Source: a virus
Virus record (IMG/VR): IMGVR_UViG_3300009183_002768
Coordinates: 1 to 33,027 of that record
Length of the DNA: 33,027 bases
Direction: 5' to 3' (one strand)
Shown here: positions 4,064-15,634 of the stretch, piece after piece
How positions within the stretch are numbered: the first letter of the stretch is position 1
Layout: every line of letters starts with the position of its first letter
The notes under the pieces: model-generated
The model's input: only the letters and a program-made list of their open reading frames with translations
Database searches by the model: none
What the model was told of the DNA's origin: nothing
Position numbers and translations under genes: made by a program

Positions 4064-5512
4064 TTACGTCCACGCCCCCGAAGGAACACGGCTGCGGCCT
4101 TCTCGTCGTGGGCGCGTCTGCAACCTCCCAGAAATCATCCCCACCATCCCACCATGAGCTGCCAGTGCCGCGTACTGAAGGGCGTCGATAACGTGCGAGT
4201 ATTCGTTCTTGTCAGGGGTAGGCTTCATCCTGCCGCTCCGCATCTTGGCATAGCGATACCCACCAGACATCGCACGAATGACTGTAGGGCACCTGTCCTT
4301 GTCTATGAGGATGGCCGGACCCCCGTCGCGCTGTGCCAGCAAGAACGCCTCGATAGACCGGATGCGGGGGTCGATGTCGTTGGTGGGTGCGGGGAACGCC
4401 ATGAACCCCATACGCTTCAAAGCATCAAACGATGTCTCCTCGTAAATGGAGCCCTTCGAGCGACCTGCTGGATCACCTACCATCGCAACAGCGCGCCCCA
4501 GAAACATAGGGTTCATGAGGGCGGGGCGCAGGTTACGCTCGACGTGCAGTTCCAGACCGATGTCCTCGGCTATCACTTCTGCAATTACGAGGAAGCGTCC
4601 CTTGTGATCGAGCTGGCAGATGATGCTACAGGGGTCGCGCCCAAAGTCCTGTCCGATGATTAGCGGATGTCCAGATACTGGCGTAACGCCCTCAACCACA
4701 TGAAAGCTAGACTTAAAGCTCTCGCGGAACACCGCGCTGCCGCTGGGGTCATCTCCAAACTTTGCGTGAACATAACGCTTACACCAGTCTTCCGCGTTTG
4801 AGCGGAGGAAGCGTTCGTAGTAGGTACGCCCCTGCGCCTTGCGGCCTTCTGATGTTATGGGGAGCTTGAGCGTCTCGGGGGTCTGGGTGAGCCACTCAAG
4901 GTTCTCTGCGGTGTCCTCCATTCCACCCGGCTGGATAAATATCTGCCAATCCGGTGGTGTAGCCAGCGCCATGATCTTGTGCCACGGAGACCCCTCAGAG
5001 GGCATGTTGGTGTCGGCGATGATGCCGAACCAAGTGGCACCACCAAGGTTTGCTGCGGGGTAACGTCCACAGCGGCCAGCCAGAGGGCTAACGATACCGA
5101 CATCCATCTCGATGGCCTCGGACATCCACGCGCCCGTGAGCTGCATGGACAGAAGCCTGCGCTGGTCCTCAGGGGTGTCCAGTGGGATGAGCAGCCACTC
5201 CGAGCGCACATCTCCGATACTTATATAGATAGTGTTGTCACTTACCTTGTACTGCGCGATGCCGTCGAGCCATGTTGTGATGTCCTTGAGCACGGTGTCT
5301 TTGAGCTGCTTGAGCGTCTGGCGGACGATGGCCCAGCGGGTGTAGCGCAGCCCGTCCGCTGCCGGTGCCTGCTCGCAGGACCGTCGGAACAACTCAAACA
5401 AACAGGCGGTGGTCTTGCCGGAGCCCACGGGGCCAGCGATGAGACGGCCAAAACTATTGGACTTCATGAACGCTGCACAGGTCGGCGGAGCCGAGTAGTT
5501 AATGTTGGGCAT
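4064..5512 (-). CDS. terL: terminase large subunit
   Basis: ATP-driven DNA packaging motor with nuclease. Of 482 residues, the Walker A loop AGPVGSGKTT lies at 26-35, a Walker-B-like GAWMSEA at 127-133 with its Glu at 132, and the C-terminal RNase-H-like nuclease shows IGQDFGRD (D289), MVGDPAG (D347) and HVIDALQYAAL (D443), the three expected acidic residues. Length is normal for the family. The start codon overlaps the stop of the small subunit gene (TGATG), so the two are coupled. The gene pair is leftward, divergent from the portal, whereas in many phages terminase and portal are collinear. It is followed by a Rho-independent terminator. Confidence 0.95.
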   Translation of the reverse strand: MPNINYSAPPTCAAFMKSNSFGRLIAGPVGSGKTTACLFELFRRSCEQAPAADGLRYTRWAIVRQTLKQLKDTVLKDITTWLDGIAQYKVSDNTIYISIGDVRSEWLLIPLDTPEDQRRLLSMQLTGAWMSEAIEMDVGIVSPLAGRCGRYPAANLGGATWFGIIADTNMPSEGSPWHKIMALATPPDWQIFIQPGGMEDTAENLEWLTQTPETLKLPITSEGRKAQGRTYYERFLRSNAEDWCKRYVHAKFGDDPSGSAVFRESFKSSFHVVEGVTPVSGHPLIIGQDFGRDPCSIICQLDHKGRFLVIAEVIAEDIGLELHVERNLRPALMNPMFLGRAVAMVGDPAGRSKGSIYEETSFDALKRMGFMAFPAPTNDIDPRIRSIEAFLLAQRDGGPAILIDKDRCPTVIRAMSGGYRYAKMRSGRMKPTPDKNEYSHVIDALQYAALAAHGGMVGMISGRLQTRPRREGRSRVPSGAWT

Positions 5513-10099: not shown

Positions 10100-10123
10100 T
10101 CTTCTCTCTTGGGAGCCTCAACA

Positions 10124-11107
10124 ATGGCATTTCCTAACGCAGGATCGGGCACAACGCCCCCAATCTACCCCACTGGTTCTACTAGCAACAACCTCTCCTC
10201 GACCGGCTTCATTCCTGAAATCTGGTCTGGCAAACTCGTCGAAAAGTTCTACGCTTCGACCGTCCTCGCGGCGATCTCGAACACGGATTACGAAGGCGAG
10301 ATCAAGAATCAGGGCGACAAGGTCAAGATTCGTACCAAGCCCACGATCACCATCTCTGACTATCGTGCTGACGGCCTGCTCTCCTTGCAGCGCCCCACCG
10401 GCAGCGTGGTTGAGCTGAACATCGACAACGGCAAGTACTTCAACACCATCCTTGACGACGTCATGGATGTTCAGTCCGACCTTAACCTTCTCAGCATGTG
10501 GTCTGATGACGCTGCCGAGCAGATGAAGATCGTGATTGATACTGCTGTGCTTGCTGGCATTCTTGGTCAGGCCAACAGCTACAACCGTGGCACGACTGCC
10601 GGTAGGATTTCCGGCAACATCAACCTCGGTGTCACCACCAGCCCCCTGTCCACCACGGCCATTGCCGCGTCTGGCAAGGTGGACATCCTCTCGGTTCTTC
10701 TCCGCATGGGTCAGGCCCTTGACGAGCAGAACATCCCCGAGACGGGTCGCTGGGTTGTACTGCCCACTTGGGCTGCTACGCTCGTCAAGCAGTCGGAACT
10801 CCGTCAGGCTTACCTGTCGGGTGACGGCGTCTCGATCTTGCGTAACGGTCGTCTGGGCATGGTTGATCGCTTCACCCTGTACACCTCCAACCTGCTCCCC
10901 ACGGGCACGGCTGGCGGTCTTGCTTCGGGTGAGACGGCCATCTACGCCGGTCATGCTCACGGTCTGACCTTCGCTTCGCAGGTCTCCAAGGTCGAGACCA
11001 TGCGTTCCGAGCAGACCTTCGGCACGATTCTGCGCGGCTTGCAGGTCTATGGCTACAAGGTCATCGACGGCACCGCGATTGCTCAGGCAATCGTGACCCC
11101 CGGCTAA
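10124..11107 (+). CDS. major capsid protein
   Basis: The start at 10124 is chosen because GGGAG lies at 10110-10114, ahead of ATG; the frame is open only five codons further. The 327-residue product has the length and alternating beta/helix pattern of an HK97-fold coat protein: an N-terminal arm (TGFIPEIWSGKLVEKFYAST), a central stretch LDDVMDVQSDLNLLSMWSDD preceding a long helix, and a domain with RWVVLPTWAATLVKQSELR and LRNGRLGMVDRFTLYTSNLL, as in P22-type podovirus coats. It follows the scaffold and is followed by a strong terminator, as is common for this highly expressed gene. Codon use looks more GC-biased than in its neighbours (third positions mostly C or G), as expected for high expression. 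Confidence 0.9.
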   Translation: MAFPNAGSGTTPPIYPTGSTSNNLSSTGFIPEIWSGKLVEKFYASTVLAAISNTDYEGEIKNQGDKVKIRTKPTITISDYRADGLLSLQRPTGSVVELNIDNGKYFNTILDDVMDVQSDLNLLSMWSDDAAEQMKIVIDTAVLAGILGQANSYNRGTTAGRISGNINLGVTTSPLSTTAIAASGKVDILSVLLRMGQALDEQNIPETGRWVVLPTWAATLVKQSELRQAYLSGDGVSILRNGRLGMVDRFTLYTSNLLPTGTAGGLASGETAIYAGHAHGLTFASQVSKVETMRSEQTFGTILRGLQVYGYKVIDGTAIAQAIVTPG

Positions 11108-12584: not shown

Positions 12585-13280
12585 ATGGCTATCTCAGTTA
12601 AGCATTTATTTACATCTGCAAAAGCGGATGGAACAGATAGCACGCTGGTCCAGCCATCAAACTGGAATGCGGAGCACACGATAACGCTCGCTGCGGGTAA
12701 AGTGCTTGGGCGTAGTTCCGCCAGTTCCGGTGCGATGCAGGAGTTGCCGATCTCTATTGATGCCACTGGGCAGTCGATGATCCCTCCTATTGGGACGACG
12801 GGCGAGCGCCCGGCTACCGCCGCCACCGGCATGTTTCGATTTAATACTACAACGACATCGTTTGAAGGGTACAACGGTGCCGCTTGGGGAAGCATTGGCG
12901 GAGGTGGGGGCGCAACTGGCGGGGGAACAGATGCCGTTTTCTTCAACAATAACAACGTAGTAACCACCAACTACACCATCCCGGCCTCGACAGTTACGGG
13001 TACTGGCGGGGTCATCGGACCCTCCAGCACGACGATGACGATTGCTTCTGGTGGCCCCTTTACCGTTGGTATGCTGGTTACGGGCACAGGCGTAACCGCA
13101 GGGACGTATATCTCAGCGGTCACAAACGCCACGACCTACACGGTTACGCAGTCTCAGTCGGTTACCTCCACTACGTTAACAGGAACTGCCAACAGCAATT
13201 CTGGTACGTTTGGACCTGTTACCGTCGCCAGCGGAGCCACCGTAACGGTTCCATTCGGCTCAACATGGAGAATCGTCTAA
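12585..13280 (+). CDS. tail fibre-like protein (231 aa)
   Basis: GGAGGAGTAGCC lies before the ATG. The N-terminus (VKHLFTSAKADGTDSTLVQP then SNWNAEH) is one commonly found at the start of phage fibre or spike proteins and probably attaches to the tail. Residues 77-103 (TAATGMFRFNTTTTSFEGYN) look like a short trimer-forming repeat found in many fibres. Residues 137-203 are copy one of the beta module ([10 protein letters not shown] ... [16 protein letters not shown] ... YTVTQSQSVTSTTLTG) also present in the fibres at 14498 and 15944. The stop shares its A with the next start (TAATG). It lacks a clear receptor-binding tip of its own and may be a connecting piece. Confidence 0.7.
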   Translation: MAISVKHLFTSAKADGTDSTLVQPSNWNAEHTITLAAGKVLGRSSASSGAMQELPISIDATGQSMIPPIGTTGERPATAATGMFRFNTTTTSFEGYNGAAWGSIGGGGGATGGGTDAVFFNNNNVVTTNYTIPASTVTGTGGVIGPSSTTMTIASGGPFTVGMLVTGTGVTAGTYISAVTNATTYTVTQSQSVTSTTLTGTANSNSGTFGPVTVASGATVTVPFGSTWRIV

Positions 13281-14266
13281 TGCCCGTCACAGTAAAAGGA
13301 TCTGGTGGCGGTGGTGTCACCCTTGATGCGGGATCTGCGGCGTCCGATACCACGCTGACGCTTCCAAACACCAGCGGAACCATCTTGCAGTCCGGCACAG
13401 CCGTCACTGCGGTGCAGGGCGGGACAGGCCTCACCACGCCCGGAACTTCTGGCAACGTGCTGACCAGTAACGGTACGGGTTGGACCAGCGCAACCCCAGC
13501 TACATCCGTCATCAACGTCCAGACGTTCACCTCTTCTGGAACATGGACCCGGCCAACCGGATATGCAGATGGCTCGCGTGTGCTTATTCAAGCATGGGGC
13601 GGTGGCGGTTCTGGGAGTAAAAGAACTACTACCGGAGGTTGCGGCGGCGGCGGCGGCGGATACAATGAACGATGGATGACACTGTCTGCTATGGCCGCAG
13701 CGGCGCTTGGAACGCAGACGGTCACTATTGGCGCGGGCGGAACTGCCATAACCGTGGCTAACACAAACGGGAATGTTGGCGGAACGACCAGTGTTGGTTC
13801 ACTGGTTTATGCCTATGGCGGCGGCGGCGGCGGCAATTCTAGCGGAGCTGGCTCCGGCGGCGGCGGCGGCGGGCAACTAGGCGCGGGAGCAAACAACGGT
13901 TACCCGGGCGAACCAGTTTTTGCTAGTTACTGGGATTCTACAAACGGTGTTAATGTTCTTGTTGGCGGCGGTAACTCTTATAATGCCGGTGCCCTTGTTA
14001 GCACCGCTGGCTTATTCCACGGCGGGGGCGGTGGCAGTACCGTTTCAGGCCTCAGCGTTGGGGTAGCGTCTGTCTGGGGCGGCGGTGGGGGTGGCGCGCA
14101 AGCTGCTGGCGCGGGCGGTGCATCTTCATATGCTGGGGCTGGCGGGGCTGCCGGTACAACTGGCACGGCGGGAACGCAGCCCGCTGGTGGCGGTGGCGGC
14201 GGTTCTAGCGGTAACTCTGGTGCTGGCGGCGCAGGCCAAGTCATCATCACCATCTTCCCGGCATAA
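13280..14266 (+). CDS. glycine-rich tail fibre / receptor-binding protein (328 aa)
   Basis: Start at 13280, coupled to the stop upstream; the frame is open five codons further but without a ribosome site. The N-terminal 90 residues carry fibre-type linkers (LPNTSGTILQSGTAVTAVQG and GNVLTSNGTGWTSATP). After FTSSGTWTRPTGYADGSRVL the protein becomes a glycine-rich domain ([37 protein letters not shown]) of the kind that forms packed polyglycine-II helices in adhesins such as phage S16 gp38, whose loops bind the receptor. The final VIITIF strand is the usual end of this domain. It heads the first of three fibre plus small-protein cassettes. Confidence 0.75.
   Translation: MPVTVKGSGGGGVTLDAGSAASDTTLTLPNTSGTILQSGTAVTAVQGGTGLTTPGTSGNVLTSNGTGWTSATPATSVINVQTFTSSGTWTRPTGYADGSRVLIQAWGGGGSGSKRTTTGGCGGGGGGYNERWMTLSAMAAAALGTQTVTIGAGGTAITVANTNGNVGGTTSVGSLVYAYGGGGGGNSSGAGSGGGGGGQLGAGANNGYPGEPVFASYWDSTNGVNVLVGGGNSYNAGALVSTAGLFHGGGGGSTVSGLSVGVASVWGGGGGGAQAAGAGGASSYAGAGGAAGTTGTAGTQPAGGGGGGSSGNSGAGGAGQVIITIFPA
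13642..13872 (+). repeat. GGC/CGG trinucleotide tracts inside the glycine-rich fibre
   Basis: Three uninterrupted tracts of six trinucleotides are seen: CGG x6 at 13642-13659, GGC x6 at 13817-13834 and CGG x6 at 13855-13872, all in the reading frame and encoding glycine runs. Similar but shorter tracts occur in the second such fibre (near 18327-18340 and 18443-18460). Gain or loss of one unit changes the glycine run without a frameshift. Confidence 0.7.
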
Positions 14267-14275
14267 GGAGCAACC

Positions 14276-14488
14276 ATGTCAACCTATGCTGTCATCAATA
14301 CGGCCACCAACATCTGCGACAACGTCGTTGTGTGGGACGATACCCTTGGTCCGTGGACCCCGCCCGCAGGTCACTACATCATCAGCATCGACGGTTTAAG
14401 CGTCGGTATTGGCTTCTCCTATGACCCGGCCACAGGAATTTGGACCGCTCCTCCAAGCCCTGAAGAGCCCGCCACTCCCACTCAATAG
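14276..14488 (+). CDS. small fibre-associated protein (70 aa), cassette 1
   Basis: AAGGAGCAACC precedes the ATG. Short protein (MSTYAVINTATNICDNVVVW ...) ending with GIGFSYDPATGIWTAPPSP and a Pro/Glu/Thr tail. The GxG(F/Y)xYDP core recurs in the small protein at 18746 (GVGYTYDPQNDVF), which likewise follows a glycine-rich fibre. Such partners are often fibre assembly or cap proteins; this is inferred from place and the shared motif. Its TAG stop lies in the same frame as the following fibre gene. Confidence 0.6.
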   Translation: MSTYAVINTATNICDNVVVWDDTLGPWTPPAGHYIISIDGLSVGIGFSYDPATGIWTAPPSPEEPATPTQ

Positions 14489-14497
14489 GAGGCTGCC

Positions 14498-15634
14498 ATC
14501 AGCACTCTCAAGACCATCAACGTCATCCACCCCTCCGGCACGGTCAACAACATCGTCAACGATTCCGCTGGCAGCATCACTGTCGGCAACGATGTAATTG
14601 TCGTTAACGACATCGTTGTCGGGTTTTCCGGCACTGGATCAATCGCTACGACAACGCTGACGATCACAGCCTCAACTTCTGGCGCGCTTGCCATTGGCTC
14701 AATCATCACCGGCACAGGAGTGACTGCCGGGACGACAATCACAGCCATTCTTTCAGGCTCTGGCGGCGTCGGAACATATACCGTCAGCGTGTCCCAGACT
14801 GTTTCTAGCACAACGATAACGTCTGGCTCGCTCACCGTAGCTGGCTCGTCCGTTTCCGGGTCGAGCGGAACAAACCTTCAGAACCGACTCTGGACCGGGT
14901 TCAGCGCCACGGGATCTATTGGCCCGTCTTCGACTACAATGACAATCACGGCTGTCTCAGGCGGCCTGTTGACGGTTGACTCCGTCATCACTGGCACGGG
15001 TGTGACTGCGGGGACGAAGATCGTAGCGCAGTTGACTGGCTCGTTTGGATCAACGGGAACCTACACTGTTAGCGCGTCTCAGACCGTTGCCAGCACAACC
15101 ATCTCATCCACTGGCGGAAGTTGGACATGCCCCGCTGGCGTGACGCAGGTTCGTGCGACGGTGATAGCGGGGGGTTCTGGTGGGTACAACGATGGAACAA
15201 ATCAGAACTCTGGGGCGAGCGGCGGTGCCGCAGTTGGTTATTTTACAATAACACCGACAACAGTTTACGCTGCAACAGTTGGAGCCGCCTCTGCTAGTGT
15301 CATCACCGGCACATCAGCGTCTGGCGGATCAAGTTCATTTGGCTCCCTCCTATCGGCCACTGGGGCAAGCGGCGGATCTAGTGCCGGTGGTGGGGGAGCT
15401 GGATCTGGGACTGGTGGAAATTTAATAAACTCTAGCGCAAGTGTTATCACAATCCCTTGGTTCAAAATTGCTACTGCTACAGCTATTTCGGGTACAGCAG
15501 CTAAATACTGGTCCCAAATTGCTACTAACAATCAGCATCTCGCAGGCGCTGGCGGGGGCGCGGGCACTGGTGGATCTTCTGGATCTGCGCTCGGCGGCAT
15601 TGGCGGCATCGTTTACATCGAATATGTGGGGTAA
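14498..15634 (+). CDS. glycine-rich tail fibre (378 aa) with an ATC start codon
   Basis: The protein begins in frame at ATC 14498 after a perfect AGGAGG (14487-14492) and a 5-base spacer: (M)[19 protein letters not shown], an N-terminal fibre head very common in phages. No ATG, GTG or TTG lies in frame before GTG 14720, which would remove this head. Residues 43-110 and 135-206 are two copies of the beta module found in the genes at 12585 and 15944. From residue 207 ([20 protein letters not shown]) to the end ([13 protein letters not shown]) it is a glycine-rich domain like that of the fibres at 13280 and 17526. Alternatives are a natural start-codon mutation, a sequencing error or TAG readthrough from the gene upstream. 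Confidence 0.72.

Follow-up and report, generated by a model that had tools for sequence, protein, structure and literature searches.

How does translation of a phage fibre gene begin when its conserved head is preceded by no canonical start codon? This question is raised by a gene carried by a virus record of 33,027 bases, hereafter called the window, i.e. the whole stretch of DNA analysed. The gene, like all the window features described below, lies on the plus strand; it spans 378 codons (14498..15634) and encodes a head, tail-fibre-like modules and a glycine-rich end. Its product matches PHROG 38233, a tail fiber protein (E 6.6e-13), and PHROG 21413 (E 6.9e-20). The phage-fibre head recognized in the original prediction is indeed present, in the conserved form (M)STLK-IN--HPS--NNIVND, together with fibre-like modules, which places the protein among tail fibres; the conserved part of this head, 25 aa long (14501..14575), is translated from ATG in most relatives. 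In the window, positions 14486-14503 read TAG GAG GCT GCC ATC AGC (in a longer reading, CACTCAATAGGAGGCTGCCATCAGCACTCTCAAG). The codon assigned as start from the sequence and its relatives is the ATC at 14498..14500, located 5 nt (CTGCC) from a Shine-Dalgarno (SD) core AGGAGG (14487..14492). Both the core and the spacer belong to a leader, AATAGGAGGCTGCC (14484..14497), that is an instance of a recurring motif, AATAGGAGGC[TG]NCC. The sequence bears out the earlier description of a perfect AGGAGG, a 5-base spacing and an ATC at 14498 without any in-frame ATG, GTG or TTG before 14720: the first such codon is the GTG of codon 75 (14720..14722), which is thought not to serve as the gene start.

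The fibre gene directly follows a gene of 70 aa (MSTYAVINTATNICDNVVVWDD..., 14276..14488) with a weak match to PHROG 14370, whose TAG stop (14486-14488) overlaps the SD sequence and is in frame with the ATC, 9 nt before it. This 70-aa module is free-standing in the window and forms the front of longer open frames in about 10 related contigs (L084-L093), a case of shuffling or fusion of modules. In two relatives (L092, L134), the gene directly 5' of the ATC fibre gene resembles, judged by eye, a free-standing homing endonuclease of the HNH type. Insertion of a mobile element at the start codon was considered and rejected, because two relatives (L108 and L120) have a common upstream gene and are distinguished only by the leader.

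The sequence recurs in two further IMG/VR contigs, with zero differences from the window over 11,134 nt; these contigs may share reads or a sampling site and are therefore not fully independent. The other genes of the window, which include those of a head-tail adaptor/portal, a major head protein and an internal virion protein, have ordinary starts and none carries the TAGGAGG leader. Two of their listed starts probably lie too far upstream. The ORF of the major head protein (10109-11107) is listed from TTG 10109, and an ATG six codons in (MAFPNAG...), preceded by GGAG, is the likelier real start; likewise, the gene at 13265-14266 more likely starts at the ATG of MPVTVKG, a few codons past 13265. 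The front of the latter product (MPVTVKGSGGG...) is resembled by that of a gene of another phage, on the reverse strand of L249 (reverse-complement position 5267), IPIKLNGSTSG, which starts at ATT behind AATAGGAGGCTACC.

The answer that best fits the comparisons below is that AUC 14498 very probably is the working start of the fibre gene and belongs to a recurring class of phage genes starting with AUU or AUC (AUY). This class, defined here from sequence comparison, consists of phage virion genes located behind TAGGAGG-N5, with AATAGGAGGC[TG]NCC-AUY as a fuller consensus. A search of a viral collection with a DNA pattern of the fibre head in which the start codon was left free retrieved 35 stretches. 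Most of them start with ATG, two with GTG and several with ATT or ATC. Wherever upstream sequence is readable, all the ATT or ATC heads are directly behind AATAGGAGGC[TG]NCC (L115, L120, L134/L092, L141 and L142, the last one coming from a separate search and not from the 35 stretches). Thus TAGGAGG-N5-AT[T/C] precedes the same fibre head in five other distinct phages; the upstream genes differ among these relatives, and another head (L124) starts with TTG behind TAGGAGGCTGAT. Few relatives are found among annotated phage records. The original prediction held that an ATG at 14498 in relatives would reveal an assembly error. Most relatives do have ATG, but behind a different leader, and those that have this leader do not. 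A sequencing error is thus contradicted by distinct relatives in which this leader precedes ATC or ATT at the corresponding codon, and AUC initiation, which had been listed among the possibilities, is supported by the association of this leader with AUU, AUC or AUA (AUH) in relatives and by the codon selection described below.

The association between leader and start codon was also examined in scans that were not selected for the leader. The second of these covered the relatives of one major capsid protein and gave 71 ATG, 4 GTG and 3 ATT starts; all three ATT genes have TAGGAGG-N5. Pooled, the fibre-head and capsid scans comprise 96 distinct sites, both scans being small and their members related. 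Behind TAGGAGG-N5, these sites include 8 AUH, 2 GTG, 1 TTG and 0 ATG, versus 81 ATG, 4 GTG and 0 AUH behind all other leaders (Fisher P 1.2e-9, uncorrected for kinship). In these unselected scans, every readable AUH start is preceded by AGGAGG at 5 nt, i.e. by a strong SD sequence at good spacing, and the AUH codon lies at the homologous N-terminus, without a nearby canonical start. Outside the anchored pattern, AUH starts at AGGAGG sites were convincing only where T precedes AGGAGG and the spacing is 5. A capsid tree, supplemented with two ATC genes found in the leader scan described below, requires no fewer than 3 changes for the AUH state and has an ATT gene (L348) beside an ATG gene (L352); the fibre-head tree is too short for origins to be resolved. 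Among alignable capsid leaders, CAATAGGAGCCACGTAA-ATG (L346) can be compared with CAATAGGAGGCTCCG-ATT (L348). L346 and L348 also have in common a short frame, ATGGCAT..., some 45 nt ahead of the capsid start; it overlaps this start, ends at a TAG within the first codons of the capsid gene and might encode a leader peptide. In L342, L344 and L345, the capsid leader is separated from the gene before it by GC-rich hairpins (e.g. gaacgcgccgcaacaacggcgcgttc).

Most of the loci come from a scan with the pattern AATAGGAGGCNNCCATH, which contains the leader. Among the matches listed, many sites are followed at once by long ORFs that have Ile in the position of the initiator Met. The families concerned are mostly unrelated virion genes: a major head protein (IPVALANIRSELLPGLFDVRG), a head/protease protein (IQVIDRSLxPSQYWPGL), a protein involved in DNA ejection (IGLFDxFSND), IASLDDILTTQKNGV, a tail fibre (IPRDGSGVY), a tail sheath (ITYLVSPGVYP) and further ones including a portal and a minor tail protein; a few are non-virion genes. 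The homologues examined have ATG at the same or a neighbouring codon; for example, in the homologues of the IASLDD gene it occupies either that codon or the one before. When the third base was left free, 78 ATG versus 42 ATH were found among the 120 matches listed. With both leader scans pooled, the distinct sites followed by an ORF of at least 60 aa comprise, among the matches listed, 35 ATC, 31 ATT and only 4 ATA (4/70; binomial P 3e-8 against one third). As decay of ATG by the common G-to-A transition would favour ATA, this scarcity speaks against such decay. In 22 virus records chosen for the signal, TAGGAGG-N5-ATH occurs at 24 sites, versus 3 for the reversed pattern. Globally, the recurrence of leader and AUH before homologous and unrelated phage genes goes beyond chance. 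One phage has three ATT starts, those of its capsid gene and of genes encoding proteins of 134 aa and 1252 aa. Nearly all the other phages carry a single gene of this type, and genome-wide adaptation to AUH was therefore rejected.

Some loci outside the typical virion families were also seen. A CDYSL-type protein of 140 aa, which does not look like a virion protein, starts with ATC or ATT behind the same leader (L350 at 3454, L550, L551; L174). Leader and AUH also precede a gene for a DNA-binding protein (PHROG 624) located on a contig of 164 kb (L200, 8652) and one for a PHROG 22485 protein, Hsp70-like by eye (L154).

Several features of the sequences downstream of AUH suggest that they are translated. 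In six families, pN/pS ranges from 0.09 to 0.49, over the codons from AUH to the first canonical start or over codons 2-15. These codons are thus under purifying selection, which indirectly indicates translation; this selection may partly be inherited from times when the gene had ATG. Codon 2 at AUH sites mostly encodes Pro, Ala, Ser or Gly, which fits proteins from which Met is removed. RNA folding at the window site is unremarkable (z -0.6), AUH and ATG sites fold alike, Rfam gives no match at the window site and no phage promoter motif is conserved upstream of AATAGG among the listed sites.

Explanations that do without functional initiation at AUC must nevertheless be weighed. Since a single in-frame TAG lies 9 nt before the ATC in the window and, in some relatives, longer proteins begin with the 70-aa module, ribosomes might pass TAG 14486 and produce a fusion of the 70-aa protein with the fibre. 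Such readthrough, already envisaged in the original prediction, is very improbable and fails as a general explanation. Indeed, an in-frame TAA directly precedes the TAG in L115, L120, L141 and L142, a second in-frame stop is present within 20 codons upstream of the TAG at 42/70 AUH sites, and no upstream gene ends within 250 nt at 34/69, some of these being capsid genes with long untranslated leaders; a single stop between an upstream frame and the gene is therefore not a conserved arrangement. Furthermore, no tRNA gene was found in the window, and an AGGAGG at a fixed distance would be needless. Reassignment of TAG to an amino acid was rejected as well, as several window genes end in TAG. The same upstream gene ends bear on termination-reinitiation, in which ribosomes ending at TAG 14486 would slide to an AUC used only when coupled to upstream translation. 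An upstream gene does stop no more than 23 nt from the AUH codon in the window and in the fibre relatives, but about half of the AUH sites have no nearby upstream gene end, and the frequency of nearby upstream stops does not distinguish AUH from ATG sites. Obligate coupling is therefore highly unlikely, although reinitiation may help at the window site.

The two other alternatives deny that the head is made in useful amounts, or at all. The gene could have lost its start, ATG having been mutated or mis-sequenced, and be dead or barely expressed; ATG is present in most relatives, and several similar fibre-like genes of the phage could take over its role. The knock-out of an ATG proposed earlier is nonetheless very improbable, as the same codon class and leader recur in distinct phages and before essential genes such as those of capsid and portal, the product of the common transition, ATA, is rare, 378 codons have remained open and the downstream codons are under purifying selection. 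Finally, the protein could start at GTG 14720, the first canonical in-frame start, and lack the head. This has next to no probability: the head is the conserved N-terminus of the fibre, translated from ATG in most homologues, and purifying selection acts on its codons in the AUH copies.

Initiation at AUC 14498 would most simply involve the ordinary initiator tRNA, with fMet-tRNA reading AUY. The initiator tRNA could start at AUU or AUC as the codon would be kept in the P site by the AGGAGG helix, placed at the favoured distance of exactly five bases. The strong SD sequence and the weak codon would then form a compensating pair tuned to the wanted output. IF3 may proofread against AUY, by analogy with infC and sigR, in which case output would depend on IF3 or on the state of the ribosome in the infected cell. 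Any particular regulatory purpose of AUY, such as limiting dose or delaying a gene, can only be proposed tentatively, and the phages may have no use for such a start beyond tolerating it. The strong-SD model offers no explanation for the T before AGGAGG and the T or G after AGGAGGC, the latter being found at 60/65 AUH sites versus 17/44 ATG sites (P 2.5e-9). A more speculative possibility, rather unlikely at present, is that AATAGGAGGC[TG]NCC-AUY is a dedicated phage initiation signal on which unrelated phages converged repeatedly, the bases outside AGGAGG being recognized, or tuned for useful AUU/AUC efficiency, perhaps under a switch governed by IF3 or by the state of the ribosome during infection. 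The weak translation and low-dose fibre envisaged in the original prediction are only a possibility: in other phages the same signal serves a major capsid protein, which speaks against a start that is simply weak.

Although real, the class is rare. Across 398 Pseudomonadota genomes, leader followed by ATH is no more frequent than chance predicts, with 5 hits as compared to 3 when the pattern is reversed, and the leader precedes ATG at real-looking genes in 385 alphaproteobacterial genomes (30 loci read); on these grounds, the idea of an exact copy of a host infC leader was rejected. Among 50 phage records not chosen for the signal, one lineage (two records) has a real TAGGAGG AUH start, and none of the 8 AAGGAGG-N5-ATH sites found as a control in the same records is a convincing AUH start. 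No phage-encoded IF3 homologue or initiator tRNA was found.

AUH starts are known from a few cellular genes. The start of infC, AUU in E. coli and ATC in Streptomyces, is proofread by IF3, leading to IF3 autoregulation (PMC5472188). The alphaproteobacterial infC genes read here mostly have ATA; some have the same spacing as the phage sites, as in TAGGAGG-GTTTC-ATA (L481) and, with ATC, TAGGAGG-TACTT-ATC (L489). infC thus shares with these sites an AUH start and a purine-rich SD sequence, whereas the phage genes are virion genes, use AUU or AUC rather than ATA and have the fixed leader AATAGGAGGC[TG]NCC, their control by IF3 being only presumed. In Streptomyces, sigR has a GTC start repressed by IF3 (PMC5472188). 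Like the phage starts, it is non-canonical, lies behind a strong AGGAGG and was overlooked by annotation; however, it is another codon in a single cellular regulator gene and was measured by N-terminal sequencing and reporters. In Staphylococcus aureus, cvfC1 (AUU), ccpN and citZ (AUA) have conserved AUH starts with a strong SD sequence and about 10-30% of the AUG level (PMC13009471). That level for AUU/AUA fits poorly with use by a major capsid protein, and the extended SD pairing of the S. aureus genes does not extend to the phage sites, where the T before and the C after AGGAGG break pairing if the usual 16S tail is assumed, which may not be that of the host. Overproduction of IF3 impairs the propagation of M13, a case that its authors tie to reinitiation (PMC2268962); phages can thus be IF3-sensitive. 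AUU or AUC starts on phage virion genes were not found reported earlier in the open-access literature.

A comparison can also be made with phage Q-beta, whose A1 protein is a readthrough extension. As there, a single stop codon lies between two in-frame virion genes of the window, but at the sister sites of the phage AUH class second stops occur in frame and the upstream genes are unrelated or missing.

The object of interest is therefore the class rather than the single fibre gene: a recurring, previously unnoticed class of phage capsid, portal, sheath and fibre genes with AUU or AUC starts, a start type outside the search of ordinary gene finders. As starts other than ATG, GTG and TTG are not accepted by standard gene finders, such genes of environmental phages are probably mis-started or truncated in databases. 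If AUU or AUC can drive the synthesis of a major capsid protein, these codons can no longer be viewed as reserved for weak, self-limiting genes like infC. Furthermore, the defined leader allows simple reporters to test directly what near-cognate initiation requires and which part IF3 plays in infected cells.
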